Positions 4,213-50,800 of a stretch of DNA of 64,000 nt are shown piece by piece. The position numbers and the translations under genes were made by a program. Location of the stretch: contig NZ_CP031376.1 in the NCBI RefSeq assembly GCF_003363775.1, positions 434,001 to 498,000 on the forward strand, given 5' to 3'. The notes below the pieces were generated by a model. It was not told the origin of the DNA. It saw only the letters and a program-made list of their open reading frames with translations, and searched no databases. This DNA is from Spiroplasma alleghenense (GTDB lineage Bacteria; Bacillota_I; Bacilli_A; Mycoplasmatales; Mycoplasmataceae). Every line of letters starts with the position of its first letter. Within the stretch, counting starts at the first letter, position 1.

Positions 4213-4940
4213 TGAAATTTTCTATATTGACATTATTTCCTAATATGATAAGCAGTTACTTGGGCGAATCAATTATGAAGCGAGCGCTTGAAAAAAATCA
4301 AGTTGAAGTAGAAATTATTGATATTAGAAATTTTGCAACTTCACCACAAAAACAAGTTGACGATTATCAATTTGGCGGTGGTAGAGGAATGGTTCTAATG
4401 ATAGAACCACTTGTAAAAGCCATTCGCAGTGTTGAAACTAAAGATAGTTTGAAAATATTGCTTACACCTCAAGGGAAGACTTGAAATCAAAAAATAGCTA
4501 GAGAGTTTAATCTTAGTAAAGAGCACATTATTTTGATCGCTGGTCATTATGAGGGTTTTGACGAAAGAATTCTAAATTATATTGATATGGAAGTTTCAAT
4601 CGGAGATTTTATAATTACTGGTGGAGAGTTAGCCGCCTTGGTAATAATTGATTCTCTAATTAGGATTACCCCCGGAGTAATTGATGATTCTAGTCATGAA
4701 CAAGAAAGTTTTGAAAATGATTTACTTGATTTTCCGGTTTATACAAAACCGCTGAATTTCGAGGGGTTTCAAGTTCCTGAAGTCCTGACATCCGGTCACC
4801 ATAAAAATATTCAAAATTTCAGAGAAGAAGCAGCGCTACTTAAAACAATTAAACAACGCCCTGATATTATTGTTGAAAATAATTTATCAGATTACCAAAA
4901 AACAATTTATAAAAAAATTAAAATGAAAGGAGACAAATAA
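4212..4940 (+). CDS. trmD: tRNA (guanine37-N1)-methyltransferase TrmD
   Basis: SPOUT enzyme making m1G37 in tRNAs with G36, which prevents +1 frameshifting. It has 242 residues, the usual length. Family motifs seen are ILTLFPNM at the start, [12 protein letters not shown] near residue 57, [10 protein letters not shown] near 109, the knot element [13 protein letters not shown], and LTSGHHKNI near the end. One TGA-Trp lies in the TPQGKTW stretch. It overlaps rimM and rplS by one base on each side, so the three are translationally coupled. Confidence 0.97.
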
Positions 4941-5332
4941 TGAACGCATTGTCTAAATTAACATCAGACTTTATGACAGCTCAATTGCGTGAAGATTTAC
5001 CAAAATTTTCATCAGGAGACACAATTAAAGTTAACGTTAAAATTAAAGAAGGAGAAAAATTCCGTATTCAAGCATTTGAAGGTTTAGTAATTAAAACTCA
5101 AGGAAGTGGAATTTCATTCTCGGTTATCGTAAGAAAAATTTCAAATGGTGTTGCAGTGGAGAGAACTTTCCCATTACACTCACCAATCATCGATTCTATT
5201 GAAGTATTAAAAAGAGGACGTGTACGTCGTGCTAGAATTTACTACATTAGAAAATTATCAGGAAAAGCAGCTCGTATTAAAGAAATTGTTACAGCTAAAC
5301 CTGTTAAAAATAAACCAGTAGAAAAAAAATAA
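4940..5332 (+). CDS. rplS: 50S ribosomal protein L19
   Basis: 130-residue large-subunit protein at the 30S-50S interface. It shows [26 protein letters not shown], the [13 protein letters not shown] block and the basic [13 protein letters not shown] motif. The C-terminal tail ([11 protein letters not shown]) is Lys/Pro-rich and slightly extended. It is the last gene of the rpsP operon, followed by a hairpin terminator. Confidence 0.98.
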
Positions 5333-5347
5333 AATAAATAATTAATG

Positions 5348-5380
5348 CCATTTTAGTTAAAACTCTAAAATGGTTTTTTT
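5348..5380 (+). terminator. Intrinsic terminator of the rpsP operon
   Basis: CCATTTTAG and CTAAAATGG form a 9-bp stem with an 8-nt loop, followed by seven T. Confidence 0.85.
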
Positions 5381-5492: not shown

Positions 5493-6392
5493 ATGGATTT
5501 AGAAAAGGCTAGTTTTAATTGATTTCCCGGTCATATGAATAAAGCAATAAAGGAAATTCAAAAACAAATCCCGGTTGTTGATCTGATTATTGAGATTGTT
5601 GACGCCCGAGCACCTTATTCTTCTCAAAATCCTATTTTTAAAAAAATTCTTACCAATAAGAGTAAACTGCTGGTTTTTACTAAATGCGATCTAGCCGATG
5701 CTAATGTTGTTAAGCAATGAAAAGATTATTTTGAAGCAAATGGTAACTATGTCTACTTAATTAAAAATAAGACAGTTCCTATTATTTCTGAAATAATTAA
5801 ATTAATAAACACAATTACTTTCGAAAAACAAAACAGGGATAAAAACCGAGGTATTGTAAATCCGCAAATCAATGCTTTGGTTATAGGAGTTCCTAACGTT
5901 GGAAAATCCACAGTTATATCTAGATTAGCCAAGGGTAAGGAATTGAAAATTGGAAACAAACCAGGAGTAACTCGCGGAATGCAAAGAATTAACTTGGATA
6001 AAAATATTACCTTGATAGATACTCCAGGAATTCTACCGGCAAGATTTGCTAACGAAAAGGAAGCTATAAATTTAGCTGCGATTAATGCAATTAAGCGAGA
6101 AGTTATTCCTAAAGAGAGGTTTGTTTGTTTATTGATTCAAAATCTTTATAACAATTACCAAGAAACATTAGAAAAATTTTTTCAAGAAAAATTCTATTTT
6201 AATAAGCCTTTATCTTTGGACGACTCAGTGAAGATTTTAGAGTCACTAGCTCAAAAAAATCAGTGAATTGTGGTCGAGGGAGTTTGGGATATCGAAAGAG
6301 TAATGGAGTTATTTATTAGTGATCTTTTCAAAAATAAACTTGAAAATATTTCTTTTGAAAATCCAGATTTTTTAAAAAATGAAGCATATTAG
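5493..6392 (+). CDS. rbgA: Ribosome biogenesis GTPase RbgA (YlqF)
   Basis: Circularly permuted GTPase needed late in 50S assembly. It has 299 residues. The G motifs are in permuted order: the NKxD equivalent (FTKCDLAD, near residue 63) precedes the P-loop GVPNVGKST (near 130), then PGVTR and the DTPG motif. The start MDLEKASFNWFPGHMNKA is the family's N-terminus with WFPGHM, using TGA for W. AGGGGTG lies 8 nt before ATG. It overlaps the next frame by 14 nt. rbgA followed by rnhB is a common Firmicutes pair. Confidence 0.95.
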
Positions 6393-8712
6393 TAAAAAGC
6401 AACCAAGCGATGCCCTGGTTAGTTTCGACAAAGAAGTTAAAACACAATACAATGTTGATGTAATTTCGGGTACCGATGAGGCAGGTCGTGGAGCAATGGC
6501 AGGTCCTGTGGTTGTAGCTTCTGTAATTTTGCCAAAGGGATATCAAAATTATGAAATTAAAGATTCTAAACTTTTAAATTCTAATCAACGCGAAATCTTA
6601 TACCAAGAAATTATTTCTCAGGCAATTTGCTGAGAGGTTGATATTATTGACAATGAAGAAGTTGATTTGATCAATCCTAAGCAGGCTAGTCGTCAGGGGA
6701 TGGTAAAAACGATTGAGAAGCTAAAAACAAAACCGCAATTAGCTTTAGTTGATGCTGAAAAAATTGTTATTAATAATATTGAAGTTTTATCTTTAATAAA
6801 AGGGGATTACTTAAGCCAATCGATTGCTGCTGCAAGCATTGTTGCCAAAGTTACTCGAGATAACATAATGAAATTATTTCATGAAAAATACCCTTTGTAT
6901 GAATTTGATAAGCACAAGGGGTACTGTACGCTAAAGCACCAAGCTTTGGTAAAAGAATTGGGAGTACTTCCAATTCATCGAAAATCTTATAAACCAATTA
7001 AACAAATATTGAAAGAGGTCAGTTATATGAAATTTAATAAGGAAAACGAAATTTATAAATCTTGAATGGAACATAATTTTTTAGATTCAAAAATAAAAGA
7101 ACAATTAACAACTGCAAGTGATGAAGAGCTAGCAGCAGCTTTTGGATTAGAACTAGAATTTGGAACAGCAGGAATTAGAGGTATCCTGGGTGCAGGTCCC
7201 GGTCGTTTTAATCAATATACTGTCAAAAAAGTAACAATTAGTTATGCTAAATTATTAATTAAAAAATATCCAAATGATTTAAATTGTGGAGTTGTGATTG
7301 GTCATGACAATCGTCATCAATCAGCAGAATTTTCAAATTTAGTCGCTGAAATATTAACTAGTTTTGGAATAAAAGCTTATTTATTCGAAAATAATGCAAT
7401 GAAACCAACTCCGGTTGTAAGTTTTGCTACAAAGCACTTAAACTGCATTGGAGGAATCGTTATTACTGCTAGTCACAATCCGGCTCAATATAACGGTTAT
7501 AAAATCTATGACGAATTTGGTTGTCAACTTATGCCAGAAGACACTGACGTTATTGCTGCCGAAATGGAAACAATAGAAGATATAATTGGTTGAACTTATA
7601 AATCAAATGATAAACTGCTTGAAACTGTTGGGGAATCAGCAATCGGTTCTTATAAAGAAATGGTTGCGAATCTGCAGTTTTACAAAAAGTCTTCTCGTGA
7701 TAATTTTAAAATCGTTTATTCAAATGTAAACGGAACTGGTATTGAATTTGCACCACCATTACTTGAAAAGTATGGCTATGATGTAATTCAAGTAGAAGAA
7801 CATGCATTTGAAGATCCTACATTTAAAAATGTTGGTAATCCAAATCCTGAATTTGCACCGGCTTGAGAAATTCCGATTAAATACGCTGTTAAACACAAGG
7901 CTGATTTGATTGTTATTAATGATCCAGATGCGGACAGAATCGGAATTGCTATTCCAGATCCTAAAAAACCATCTGAATATGTGAGACTAAGTGGAAATGA
8001 AACAGGAGCTTTATTGATTAATTGGAAACTTAGCCAACAAAAACTGAGTCAAACAATTCCTGAAAACCCAGCTTTATACTCAAGTTTTGTAACCAGTGAC
8101 TTGGGTGATCGAATTGCTAATGAGGAATACGGTGTTAAGGTTATTAAAACTTTAACTGGATTTAAGTGAATGGGTTCAGAAATCCTAAAAGAATCTGAAA
8201 GAGGTTTGAATTTTGTTTTTGCCTATGAAGAATCTTTTGGTTATGTTCTAGACTCATCAACTCGTGATAAAGACGGAATTCAAGCTGCAATCATGTTAAG
8301 TGAGGCTACCTGATTTTATAAAACTCAAAACAAAACTCTATTTGATGTTTTGGATGAAATTTATAAAAAATTTGGATACTATTACACAGATACAATTAAT
8401 TTAAACTTTAAGCCAGAGGAAATGAAATCAAAAGTTGATCCAATTATGAAAAAACTTCGTAATGAACCTTTCACAAGTCTTGGTGGATTAGTGGTTGAAA
8501 ATATTGAAGATTACATTGATGGTCTTTATAATATGCCAGGTCAAGACTTACTGAAATTCTACTTTGATGACAATTCTTGATTAGCGGTTCGCCCGAGTGG
8601 TACTGAACCAAAAATTAAAATTTACTATGTGGTTGTTGATAAAAATATGAGCAAAGCCGAAGCTAAATTTAAAAAACTTAACAATGAATTAAATAAATTT
8701 TTAAATATTTAA
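6379..8712 (+). CDS. rnhB: Continuous RNase HII - phosphohexomutase reading frame (fusion)
   Basis: One open frame of 777 codons carries two complete enzymes. Residues 1-216 are RNase HII, which cuts RNA in RNA-DNA hybrids and single ribonucleotides in DNA: SGTDEAGRGAMAGPV near residue 30 with catalytic D and E, the DAEK aspartate, AAASIVAKVTRD, then HKGY and LGVLPIHRKSY at the end. There is no stop after this; the frame passes straight into the phosphomutase beginning MKFNKENEIYKSW. The only TGA at the junction (7063) is a Trp that aligns with a conserved W of the mutase N-terminus. Either a true fusion protein is made, or the mutase is also initiated at the internal ATG 7027. Confidence 0.8.
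7027..8712 (+). CDS. Phospho-sugar mutase (phosphoglucomutase/phosphomannomutase), internal-start form
   Basis: Alpha-D-phosphohexomutase that interconverts hexose 1- and 6-phosphates. From ATG 7027 it has 561 residues, the normal length for the PgcA/ManB type. Motifs seen are LEFGTAGIRGILGAG (N-terminal), the phosphoserine loop TASHNPAQYNGYK near residue 150, the metal loop DPDADRIGIA near 300, EESFGYVLD and the C-terminal phosphate site RPSGTEPKIK. GAGG sits 9 nt before this ATG, so independent initiation is plausible. The same frame continues upstream into RNase HII without a stop. Confidence 0.88.
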
Positions 8713-33519: not shown

Positions 33520-34500
33520 ATGAAAAAAAGATTAGTATTTTTTGGCACACCTTCAATTGCCGTTGAAGTTTTAAAGGGAATCGACAAAAACAATTTTGAA
33601 ATCGTAGGAATTGTAACCCAAACAGATAAAAAAGTCGGTAGAAAGCAAGAAGTCACTCCTCCTCCAGTTAAACAATTTGGAATAGAAAATAGTATCTGTG
33701 TTTTTCAACCAGAGAAAGTTTCTTCTATTATTAAGGAACTGACAGAACTTAAACCTGATATTATTTTGACTTGTGCTTATGGTAAATTACTGCCAAAATC
33801 AGTTTTAGATTTAGTTTCAGGAATGGCGATAAATGTTCATGCCAGTTTGCTTCCAAAATATCGAGGCAGCGCTCCAATTCAATATGCTATTATGAATGGG
33901 GAAAAACAAACTGGGATTAGTCTAATGCAAATGGTCCAAGAGATGGATGCTGGTGATTTTTATGTTCAAGAAAAAGTGGAAATTACTGAAAATGATAACT
34001 TTGAGAGTTTATATAATAAATTGGCAATACTAGGTGGCAAAATGGTAGGGCAATATTTAAATGATATATATAATGGTAAAATTAAACCAAATGTTCAAGA
34101 CTTATCAAAGGTAACTTTGGCTCCTAAAATTTTAAATAATATGGAAAAGATAAATTTTAACAAATCAAGTCAAGAAGTTTTAAATTTCATTAAAGCTTTG
34201 AGTCCATCTCCTGGGGCGTATGCTATTTTGAATGGTGAGAGATACAAATTTTACAATGCCAGACTTCTGCATGAAAATGAGTTTTTTGCAATGACATTAA
34301 ATATTAAAAGAAGTGGAGAAGTTATTTCGATGGACAAAGAGGGATTTGTTGTTTGGACTTCAAGAGGGATGATTAAAATTTTGGAAGTGCAAAAACAGGG
34401 GAAAAATCGAATGAGCGCAGGAAATTACTTTAGCAACCAACAAAGAGAAGTCACAACGGGAAATGTTTTTAACGAAGATGAAGCAAAATTTGATTTTTAA
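33520..34500 (+). CDS. fmt: Methionyl-tRNA formyltransferase
   Basis: Formylates initiator Met-tRNA with 10-formyl-THF. It has 326 residues. N-terminal FFGTPSIAVEVL, then the active site NVHASLLPKYRGSAPIQYAI near residue 107 with the catalytic N and H, then MQEMDAGD-like. The C-terminal OB domain is present (VVWTSRGMIKILEVQKQGK). CAGGAGAA lies inside the upstream gene. Its last 38 nt overlap the S-component-HAD gene. Confidence 0.96.
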   Translation: MKKRLVFFGTPSIAVEVLKGIDKNNFEIVGIVTQTDKKVGRKQEVTPPPVKQFGIENSICVFQPEKVSSIIKELTELKPDIILTCAYGKLLPKSVLDLVSGMAINVHASLLPKYRGSAPIQYAIMNGEKQTGISLMQMVQEMDAGDFYVQEKVEITENDNFESLYNKLAILGGKMVGQYLNDIYNGKIKPNVQDLSKVTLAPKILNNMEKINFNKSSQEVLNFIKALSPSPGAYAILNGERYKFYNARLLHENEFFAMTLNIKRSGEVISMDKEGFVVWTSRGMIKILEVQKQGKNRMSAGNYFSNQQREVTTGNVFNEDEAKFDF

Positions 34501-35797
34501 AATTGCAATTTCAGCACTTATTTCAGCCTTACTTGTGTGTATTTCTTTTACTACAATTTTTATCAGAATTAGTGACTCTATTGTTATTCAATTTAGCGAT
34601 GGTATTTTCATGAGTTTGGTTGCGATTATTTCGGGAAAAATAATGTTAATTCCTGCAATTATCTACCCAATGCTTGTAGACTTAAGTGCTGGGGTAATTA
34701 TCTACATACCAATTTCTATTTTAATTAGATTACTAATGTTTATGATTATTAAATTTTCTAAAAAGTATTTAACAAGCTACGGAGCTTTTTTTCTAGCAGG
34801 ACTAACAATGTTTCTTTATTTGCCATTTACATATATTTTATTTAGGGAAAAGGGATTATTAGCCACAGAAGCGATTGTTGATTTAGTACAAGTAACATTA
34901 TCAGTAATTATCGCTGGAATGATGTACTTTTCAATTTCAAAGTCTGATCAAATTATGTTAACTTTAAATTTTGGAAATAAAAATTTTAGTAATTCAAGTT
35001 GACTCTTTTCAGATTATGATGGAACGGTTTCTTTTGATAAGGATTCAAACATAGATAATGAAAGTCTGAGTTTTATTAATAATTTAATAAATGCAAAAAA
35101 TAATAATTTTGTTTTTGCAACAGGAAGATTATATAACTTCATTTCAGTAAAAAATAGTGAACTTTCTCAATTTCCCAAATATACTATTTGTGGTAACGGA
35201 TCTCTTATTTACTCAAAAAAAGGAAAAATCAATTATTTTAGTTCCATTCCAAATTCAGATCGAAAATCTTTAGTTGAATTTATAAAAAAATACAAGAATT
35301 TACCAATTGATGTTGCGATTGATGGGGTAAAAATTCCTTTTCATTACTCTTATAATCCAAATTTAGAGGAAAAAAGACGTCTTAAAAAAATTGATTTTGA
35401 AGAATTTTATGATGTAGTGGAACCGCTAATTTATAAGAAAAAAAATGTAACTGTGTTTTACCTTTATACTGAAAAAAATCATCAAAATATAATTGATGAG
35501 ATCAATACTAAATTCTCTAATTTGAGAGCTTTTAAAACTAGTCCATACATCGTTGAAATAATAAATAAAAATGTTTCTAAATGATCTGCAATTGAGTATC
35601 TAATTAAGAAAAATAATATCGATCCAGAAAGAGTCTTCACATGCGGAGATGGGGAAAATGATTTTGAAATGCTAGAAAAATGCATAAATTCAGCTAAAAT
35701 GATTGAAAGTTCTCCAAAACTAGAATCTTTGCAAATCCCTACAATAACTAAGATTGAAGAAATTAAAGATTTAACAACGATTTTTGGTAAAAATTAG
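34463..35797 (+). CDS. ECF transporter S-component fused to a Cof-type HAD phosphatase
   Basis: 444 residues in one frame. Residues 1-175 form about five to six membrane helices resembling a substrate-binding S-component of energy-coupling-factor vitamin importers (FSDGIFMSLVAIISGK, then PMLVDLSAG). After a TGA-Trp the frame enters a HAD phosphatase of the Cof/IIB class with DYDGTV (motif I), FATGR (motif II), the VSKWSAIEYLI lysine region (motif III) and GDGENDFEML (motif IV). This suggests uptake of a vitamin or its phosphate ester coupled to dephosphorylation; the vitamin cannot be named. Start 34463 overlaps fmt; ATG 34478 is an alternative, and neither has a strong ribosome site. Confidence 0.82.
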
Positions 35798-35831: not shown

Positions 35832-36389
35832 ATGCAAGTAAATGATTTAAGACCTGGGACTACATTTTCCTATGAAGGAAATATTTTTTTAGTAATAGAA
35901 CAAGCCTTCACAAAGACAGGAAGAGCTCAAGGACATGTTAAAGTTAAAGTTAAAAACCTTAGAACTGGTGCTAGAACTGAGTTAACTTTTACTGGTGGAG
36001 ATAAAGTTGAAAAAGCAATGATTGAAAAGAAAGATATGCAATTTCTTTACAATGACGGAAGTAATTGTGTTTTTATGGATACTGAGACTTATGAACAAGT
36101 CGAAATTGATTCAAAAAAATTGGAATGAGAGCTTAAGTTTTTAACTGACGGAAGTATGATTAAATTAACTGAATATGAGGGAGAAGTTTTAGGAATTTCT
36201 TTAGATGATAAAGTTGAACTTGAAATTACTGAAGCTGAACCAGCTGTTAAGGGAGATACTTCTTCAGGAGCTCAGAAAAAAGCAATTGTTTCAACTGGCC
36301 ATGAGATACTAGTGCCTTTATTCATCAAAGAGGGAGAAAAGGTTCTTGTAAATACAAACGATGGTAAATATGCTGGAAGATCAAATTAA
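35832..36389 (+). CDS. efp: Elongation factor P
   Basis: Relieves ribosome stalling at polyproline. It has 185 residues in three beta domains: VNDLRPGTTF, the conserved domain I loop, FMDTETYEQVEI, and the C-terminal VNTNDGKYAGRSN. The loop-tip residue that is a modified Lys in E. coli is Arg31 here (TKTGRAQGH). AGGAG lies 7 nt before ATG. efp followed by an Asp23-family gene is the Firmicutes order. Confidence 0.97.
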
Positions 36390-48784: not shown

Positions 48785-50800
48785 ATTTATTCATTCGTAA
48801 AACAGCAGTCGGAAAATGATTGTTCAATTGCTATAGCCTCAATGGTTATAGAATATTATCAAAATAAAAAAATTTCTTTGGATTTTTTAAAATTTAAGTT
48901 TAATCTAGACGAAAATCCTAAGAACTTGAATGAGGTAAGTTCGCTACTTGGAAATTATGGTATTGAAATAAAAACGTTTCAAGCTGAAATCAGTGATTTA
49001 CTGAATTCATTAAAAATGGGACCATTAATTGCTCTTATAAAAAACAAGAATAGGGAAAACCATTTGGTGTTAATTTATAAGGTTAGTAAAGACAGGCTTT
49101 TAATTGCTGACCCAAACAACGAGGCAGTAGAGTGGATGTCAATTTCACAATTTTCAAAGATTTACCAAGGGATATTTTCGATAGCCAAAAAGGTTGCTCA
49201 TTTAAAAAAAACAAATATCAGTTTTTTTAATAATTTCAAAATAATTCGAGAAAATGTATTTTTTATTTTATTTATTACATTTTTTAGTTTGGCTTGTGAT
49301 TTGATGATAATTTTGTCTAACAGCTTTATAAAAGATTTTCTAGTTTTAGTTGAAACTAATTTTAAAAACGAGATAATGGGTTTCTTTTTTGGTTTTGCAA
49401 TTATATTTATGACATTTTTAGCAATTTCGTATTTTCAAACAATATTAATAAGAGAAGTTTACAAAGCTATTTGTCAAAAGCAAAAGCTTAAAATAACAAA
49501 ACAATTTCTAAATATCAATTATGAAAAGTTTAAAAATGTTGGTGAAATGCGTTGATATCAAATGTTTGCTGATTTACACAGTAAAAATGAAATAATTGTA
49601 ATAAAATTTTTTAAATACTTAAATTCATTTATCATTGCTATGATATGTTTATTTTTATTAATAAAAATAAACATATACTTTTTTTCATTCGTAATCATAG
49701 AAAACTTTATTATTTTACTTATTAGCAGAATTTTTTATACTTCAAAAAAAGAACTTAGTTATAAAATAAAAAATTCTGAAAATATTTACCAGAAAAATTT
49801 AAAAGATTTGGTTGATGGTTTTTTAACTACTAAGACCAGATTTTCGCAAAAAAATTCTCTTAATAAAATAATGAAAAGTTATAATGAAAATTTAGAAAAT
49901 AATAAAAAAATGGGGGGATTATCAACCAATATTGACGCATTAGAATATGTAATTAACAAGTTTTTCTACTTATTGGTATTTTATTTTGCCACTTTTTTAA
50001 TTACCAAAAAAGAGTTGCACTCTAACGACTTAATTTATTTCTCAATTCTTACTTTACAAATAAAAAAATTTTTTTCTTCAATTAATTTTTTTCTTGATGA
50101 TGTACTTAAATTAAAAATAATCAATGAAAATTTAAGCTTTTTGAATTTAGTGGAAAGCAAAGGTTGCTCTAATAGAAATATTAAAGAAAAAATAGTTTCA
50201 ATAAATATTAAGGATTTTTCAAAATATTCCAATAATAAATTAATATTGAACGACTTTAATTGTTATTTTACAAATCACAATTTTCTAAAGGGTAAAAATG
50301 GTTCAGGTAAAACAACATTAATGCTATCAATTGCGGGAATTATAAATAATTTTTCTGGGGAAATTTTTTATAATAAGATTACTAGTAAATCAATAGAAAA
50401 CTACAATAGAATAATGTATCTTAGTTCTAATGATTTTGTTTCAGATTCTACTGTTGCCAATTACATAAAAAATAATTGAGAAATTGAACCAAGATTTGCT
50501 TCTGCCTATGATAGTGTGTTTAAAATTCTCATAGAATCAGGAATTGACTTCAATAAAAAAATGAATTCAAATGCAAGTAATTTCAGTGTTGGTCAAAAAC
50601 AAATTATTAATTTTGCATCAATTATTTTTACTAACTATGATGTATATTTGATTGATGAATCACTTTCTAATGTTGAGTTTGAAATTAAAAATTCATTAAT
50701 TGAAATTTTCCTAAAAATTCACTTTGATAAATTAGTTATTTTTTGCGATCACGATATAAAAAGCGAAAAATACTTTAGTAAAGTAGTTGAGGTGAAATAA
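48785..50800 (+). CDS. ABC exporter with N-terminal C39 peptidase domain
   Basis: 671 residues if started at ATT 48785. Residues 1-130 match a C39 (bacteriocin-leader type) peptidase: Cys13 in QQSENDCSIAIASM, His93 in ENHLVLIYKV, Asp109 in LIADPN. Membrane helices follow from about 155 to 420. The ATPase has Walker A GKNGSGKT at 503-510, an altered signature FSVGQKQ, Walker B VYLIDESLS and CDHD as H-loop. The first ATG, 48842, lies after the catalytic Cys. ATT with GAAGGGGA 6 nt upstream is the only start preserving it; no ATG, GTG or TTG precedes it in the open frame. Cargo unknown. Confidence 0.85.

Follow-up and report, generated by a model that had tools for sequence, protein, structure and literature searches.

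An ECF S-component fused in frame to a HAD-IIB phosphatase in Spiroplasma alleghenense and three other mollicutes

Within a 64,000-nucleotide stretch of the Spiroplasma alleghenense genome (hereafter, the window), we found a single gene, lying between fmt and efp, that joins an S-component of the ECF transporters to a HAD-IIB phosphatase. Both parts are of known kinds and the joined architecture is new; no description of an S-component/HAD fusion turned up in the literature that we searched, coverage of which was incomplete, with subscription papers largely outside it. We favor, at a probability of roughly 45% for all of its elements taken jointly, an explanation in which the gene makes one protein, a working S-component with a tethered cytosolic phosphatase that acts on the ligand or a close metabolite, the ligand most likely being a B6 vitamer.

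Results

The fusion gene and its reading frame

The window comes from a mollicute genome (1.34 Mb, a single contig) in whose genes TGA is read as tryptophan. When translated with NCBI code 4 (TGA as Trp), positions 34463–35797 of the + strand formed one open frame of 444 residues containing two TGA codons, W180 and W374. The locus comprises the following features:

33520..34500, + strand: fmt (methionyl-tRNA formyltransferase), the upstream gene, its end overlapping the fusion gene (open reading frame and conserved neighborhood)
34463..35797, + strand: S-component/HAD fusion gene with the bounds originally predicted, 444 amino acids under code 4 (translation)
34478, + strand: more likely alternative start of the fusion gene, conserved, giving 439 amino acids (start comparison)
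34934..34999, + strand: linker, residues 158–179, fast-evolving and with no internal start bearing a Shine-Dalgarno sequence
35000..35002, + strand: TGA codon for Trp (W180) where the two domains join (translation)
35832..36389, + strand: efp (elongation factor P), the downstream gene (open reading frame and conserved neighborhood)

The core of the original prediction, made from the sequence of the window, was that a single frame encodes both an S-component and a HAD domain, and this was borne out: all 444 codons were open under code 4, and both families matched above their cut-offs. The prediction had allowed for a frame break at 35000, and TGA, a stop in the standard code, could be taken to end the frame there, as it would if the halves were distinct proteins or the assembly were wrong. 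However, 35000 is a TGA-Trp codon, TGA is read as tryptophan throughout the genes of this genome, and the junction was open in all three orthologous fusions (two with 61% and 48% identity and one from a more distant genus with 31%), so the orthologues refute a frame ending at this position, and we consider its chance of being correct negligible.

An overlap between the fusion gene and fmt had also been predicted, at 38 nucleotides. The overlap is real, and 23 nucleotides is its more likely length, because the start kept in the congeneric genome G026 (MKQNLI) corresponds to 34478 and the fmt stop codon ends at 34500. In the two other genomes with the fusion (G064, of the same genus, and G147, of another), the overlap with fmt was also short but of different length.

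Conservation of the fusion

Each of the three congeneric genomes that we compared had the fusion (100, 61 and 48% identity), as did G147 at 31–32% identity, and the gene order fmt–fusion–efp was the same in all four. Such recurrence at one locus across two genera shows that the fusion is no artefact. It is nonetheless rare, found in only four of several hundred genomes searched: with every gene read under code 4, 4 of the 53 genomes of the taxonomic family that bear the S-component family TIGR04522 had the HAD fusion and the other 49 did not, and no further full-length match turned up among 395 genomes sampled from the class. A genome-contig scan run with the full-length fusion protein returned HAD relatives only. 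Within the genus, pN was 0.21–0.36 and pS 0.66–0.78 in both domains, and the linker was fast-evolving; these values point to purifying selection on the S half and the HAD half alike.

We also considered a separate HAD protein made from an internal start. In G064 and G147 the 30 codons ahead of HAD motif I contained no ATG, GTG or TTG, and the ATGs ahead of this motif in the other two fused genes lacked a Shine-Dalgarno sequence. Because the four genes share no candidate start, and no candidate carries a Shine-Dalgarno sequence, this possibility was rejected.

The membrane half is a TIGR04522 S-component

The features of the N-terminal half are:

34499..34933, + strand: ECF S-component domain TIGR04522, residues 13–157 (curated profile match)
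34514..34528, + strand: AxxxA motif of helix 1, A18–A22, an EcfT-docking signature (sequence; role from PMC11109136)
34589..34600, + strand: Q43 (invariant) to D46 (aligned with HmpT Glu41), in loop 1 (family alignment)
34679..34681, + strand: D73, invariant in 48 members and aligned with HmpT Asp68 (alignment)
34727..34729, + strand: R89 (R, K, H or N in 48 of 48), aligned with HmpT His84 (alignment)
34817..34819, + strand: Y119 (invariant), aligned with HmpT Tyr120 (alignment)
34880..34891, + strand: D140 to Q143, aligned with HmpT Asn140 and Gln143 (alignment)

Residues 13–157 matched the NCBIfam entry TIGR04522 (EcfS_MSC_0063), an orphan family of putative S-components in mollicutes, with an E value of 6.6e-35 and 120 bits against a cut-off of 60, and all four fused proteins passed that cut-off; the same half of the window protein had no Pfam match and so no hit to PF07155. 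Like the stand-alone members of TIGR04522, with which it shares a family by score, the S half sits at the fmt-linked locus occupied by most of them, and the window protein keeps all of the invariant residues of the family (Q43, D73, L91, Y119 and Q143). It differs from other members in its extra 265-residue phosphatase domain, absent in the other 49 family genomes.

S-components share a plan of six membrane helices, with a short H2, a long H6 and both termini inside. Averaged over 48 relatives, K+R was 2.8 at the N terminus, 2.4 in loop 4 and 1.4 at the C terminus, and low in loops 2, 3 and 5, and this positive-inside pattern together with the hydropathy fits six helices with N-in and C-in orientation. 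Because the charge pattern gives C-in, the C terminus, and hence the HAD domain, is predicted to lie in the cytosol. The five- to six-helix S-component-like domain of the original prediction is compatible with the family match and with this fit to a six-helix plan; the structure prediction itself, run on the single sequence, returned a pLDDT of 53 for the membrane half, too poor for a fold search.

The AxxxA motif in helix 1 is the motif by which S-components dock on EcfT (PMC11109136). The window protein and G026 retain it unaltered; in G064 it is S/G and in G147 I/S, and because of these changes docking may be weakened in the latter two. An EcfA–EcfA'–EcfT operon was encoded elsewhere in the window genome, with EcfT over its cut-off and both ATPase genes directly upstream of it, as were other candidate S-components; on the strength of this separate operon and these additional S-components, the S half of the fusion is assigned to the group II ECF set. 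The operon likewise supports the expectation, voiced at the outset, that the S half relies on a shared ATPase module.

A HAD-IIB phosphatase with complete motifs forms the C-terminal half

The features of the C-terminal half are:

35000..35794, + strand: HAD-IIB phosphatase domain, residues 180–444 (profiles; model pLDDT 78, best PDB match 1nf2)
35012..35020, + strand: HAD motif I, D184-x-D186 (sequence and alignment)
35120..35122, + strand: HAD motif II, T220 (sequence)
35579..35584, + strand: HAD motif III, K373, followed by W374 (TGA) (sequence and alignment)
35645..35662, + strand: HAD motif IV, GDGEND, residues 395–400 (G395-D396...D400) (sequence and alignment)

Residues 180–422 matched PF08282 (Hydrolase_3) with an E value of 1e-36 and 127.5 bits (cut-off 20.9), and the HAD half scored 74.4 bits against the HAD-IIB model TIGR01484 (cut-off 41.8). 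A HAD domain with all four motifs had been predicted, and all four were found (D184/D186, T220, K373 and GDGEND at 395–400), with the catalytic motifs complete in each of the four fused proteins. The label 'Cof-type' applied loosely, in that the Cof model TIGR00099 gave the window protein 124–126 bits (126.1 for the isolated HAD half) against a cut-off of 137, which the fused copies miss, whereas a stand-alone HAD paralogue of the same genome passed with 150 bits. Scores of the fused HAD against all equivalog models of named HAD specificities fell well under their cut-offs. Judged by profile scores, the fused protein resembles both the Cof subfamily and PF07155 and is a member of neither.

The best match of the C-terminal half in both sequence and structure was to TM0651 (1nf2), one of the Cof/HAD-IIB phosphatases, which is not membrane-bound, and the structure model also resembled other HAD-IIB phosphatases; because identity of TM0651 to the fused HAD is 23%, its substrate cannot be transferred. 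Closer to home are the stand-alone HADs beginning MKWWFSDYDGT (for example, G000:C1:40415-41203), which fall in the same HAD family as the fused domain with support of 98/97 and have the same motifs. They differ from the fused domain, to which they are ~30% identical, in being soluble and in passing the Cof cut-off, and they begin at the DxD motif without a signal sequence.

These placements bear on what the phosphatase might do. A probable vitamin binder and a phosphatase in one protein had been interpreted as a means of removing phosphate from a vitamin at the membrane, either ahead of its uptake or in the course of it. Ligands bind S-components at the outside face, but the C terminus is predicted to be cytosolic and the stand-alone HAD relatives start at DxD with no signal sequence, so dephosphorylation before uptake is unlikely and we give this version very little weight. 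The part of that proposal that could still hold is that the vitamin enters in phosphorylated form and loses its phosphate once in the cell. Trapping at the membrane, also suggested, fares worse, as trapping is normally the job of a kinase and a phosphatase would undo it.

Origin of the fusion

TIGR04522 was present in 53 of the 60 genomes of the taxonomic family, and in 34 of these 53 (the window genome included) fmt lay directly upstream of the S-component gene. In most related genera the S-component stands alone after fmt; in genera g3 and g10 it sits elsewhere. Because 34 of 53 S-component genes directly follow fmt, the ancestral order was very likely fmt–ecfS, with the HAD added at that site. 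The support values (98/97) indicate that the added domain derives from the stand-alone MKWWFSDYDGT HADs of the same genomes. A related stand-alone copy persists in all four fused genomes, and the fused HAD is therefore a duplicate. AU tests placing the fusions of the genus and of G147 in one clade gave p values of 0.206 (HAD) and 0.187 (S), values by which a single origin is neither established nor rejected. Within the genus, the fused HADs group in a separate, diverged clade and keep their motifs intact, and the fused S domains sit on a long branch.

Several other arrangements were observed. In G192 (genus g10) the S-component gene (L054:4974-5483) lies between genes for a PPM phosphatase and a Ser/Thr kinase and not after fmt, and in G103 two TIGR04522 genes (L040:3711-4409 and 4707-5375) stand in tandem between fmt and efp. 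In three genomes of g3 (L080:1486-2988 in G020, L082:1489-2991 in G067 and L083:460-1968 in G088), the TIGR04522 gene has no stop and continues in frame into fructose-bisphosphate aldolase, forming run-ons of 501–503 codons in which the aldolase retains its own AGGAGG and ATG. The window itself holds a run-on at 6379–8712 (777 codons), in which RNase HII continues without a stop into phosphoglucomutase/phosphomannomutase; because AGAGG precedes the internal ATG at 7027, the phosphoglucomutase part is probably also made on its own. Elsewhere in the window, at 48842–50800, is an ABC transporter gene whose N-terminal peptidase C39 domain matches its Pfam profile only from position 20 onward. The start of this profile usually holds the catalytic cysteine, and that part may be missing here or the true start may lie upstream.

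The main rival to our preferred explanation holds that a duplicated housekeeping HAD became stuck on the tolerant C terminus of an S-component, with the two halves independent and their joining meaningless beyond co-production. We regard this as possible though somewhat doubtful. The duplicate status of the fused HAD, alongside a stand-alone relative kept in all four genomes, is what such an accident would leave, and the aldolase and phosphoglucomutase run-ons show that loss of the stop between genes occurs in this group. However, both of those run-ons have internal starts with Shine-Dalgarno sequences, whereas the HAD fusion has none, and the divergence of the genus's fused HADs with their motifs intact suggests a changed role rather than a redundant one.

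The long branch of the fused S domains would also suit a receptor-like conversion, in which the membrane half senses a ligand and controls the phosphatase as 5TMR folds do kinases, transport having been lost. S-component folds joined to cytosolic enzyme or signaling domains, as in the fusion, do exist as 5TMR receptors, including ones with PPM-type phosphatases (PMC11109136), and AxxxA is degraded in G147 and changed in G064. But 5TMR receptors carry an additional helix (H0) and an NxR motif and lack AxxxA (PMC11109136), whereas the window protein, whose N terminus precedes helix 1 by 13 residues, has no additional N-terminal helix and no NxR in the stretch joining helices 1 and 2 and, like G026, keeps AxxxA intact. 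Moreover, none of the four genomes with the fusion has a TIGR04522 gene besides it, and loss of transport would end that uptake, which makes the receptor-like conversion improbable.

Vitamin B6 as a candidate ligand

When the TIGR04522 family profile was searched against the PDB, the only match was the S-component HmpT/PdxU2 (4hzu chain S; E value 0.002), which belongs to PF07155; unlike this profile search, a single-sequence hhalign comparison with HmpT gave no support (probability 2.7%). PF07155 itself weakly matched 15 of the 48 TIGR04522 members and had hits in every family genome, and because other S-components of these genomes match it as well or better, the tie is one at the superfamily level.

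In HmpT, the residues modeled as contacting pyridoxamine are Glu41, His84, Gln87, Tyr120, Asn140 and Gln143 (PMC4860826). The corresponding positions in the window protein are D46, R89, M92, Y119, D140 and Q143, of which two are identical, three similar in type and one lost, against a background of weak overall similarity. Five of the six (all but M92) fall on conserved columns: among the 48 members, position 46 is D in 39, position 89 is R, K, H or N in all 48, position 119 is Y in all 48, position 140 is D in 43 and N in 4, and position 143 is Q in all 48; position 92 is M or I. The window protein thus differs from HmpT, which is stand-alone, both in being a fusion and in the replacements Glu41 to Asp, His84 to Arg, Gln87 to Met and Asn140 to Asp.

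Many mollicutes can neither make nor salvage PLP and depend on importing it; the known B6 S-components belong to PF07155, and the COG0561 HADs include a B6 phosphatase, YbhA (PMC9997740). Because no PdxS match reached the cut-off in any of the 60 family genomes, B6 is probably imported in this family, although with so uniform a result its presence or absence does not discriminate among genomes. Vitamin B6 is the leading candidate ligand, ahead of riboflavin, thiamine and pantothenate, because HmpT is the only solved relative, YbhA-like B6 phosphatases are COG0561 HADs and PdxS is missing.

The picture for pyridoxal kinase is more awkward. The kinase model TIGR00687 reached at best 24.5 bits in the window genome (cut-off 144.5) and passed in none of the 60 genomes, a strict cut-off that controls passed in only 2 of 14 genomes, and PF08543 used as a B6-kinase probe gave weak partial matches only. 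Because there is no recognizable pyridoxal kinase, a PLP phosphatase would waste the cofactor, unless it were limited to excess PLP or an unrecognized kinase were present.

Discussion

In our preferred explanation, the membrane half would bind a small vitamin-like ligand from the outside as a group II S-component, dock through helix 1 on the shared EcfA–EcfA'–EcfT module and still import the ligand, delivering it inside. The HAD-IIB phosphatase, held on the cytosolic side by its attachment to the end of helix 6, would then strip phosphate from the imported ligand, most likely a B6 vitamer, or from a close metabolite arriving at the inner face of the membrane. Of this picture, the computations show the fusion and its conservation, the complete catalytic motifs and an ECF module in the genome. 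A cytosolic HAD and an HmpT-like pocket are supported, if indirectly, by the charge pattern and the family alignment; we infer the retained transport, the B6 ligand and the coupling of import to dephosphorylation.

An S-component has to topple in the membrane, and the fusion raises the mechanistic question of whether a last helix carrying a 30 kDa domain leaves it free to move in this way. In related receptors, soluble extensions have been proposed to restrict toppling (PMC11109136).

A broader idea, which we consider unlikely but put forward as a hypothesis, is that TIGR04522 would be the missing B6 (or PLP) importer of mollicutes, and that in this genus it would have become a bifunctional transporter-phosphatase coupling delivery of the vitamer at the inner face to phosphate removal or control. 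Whatever the ligand, the phosphatase fusion offers a clue to it for a family present in 53 of 60 genomes, in the form of a directly testable protein.
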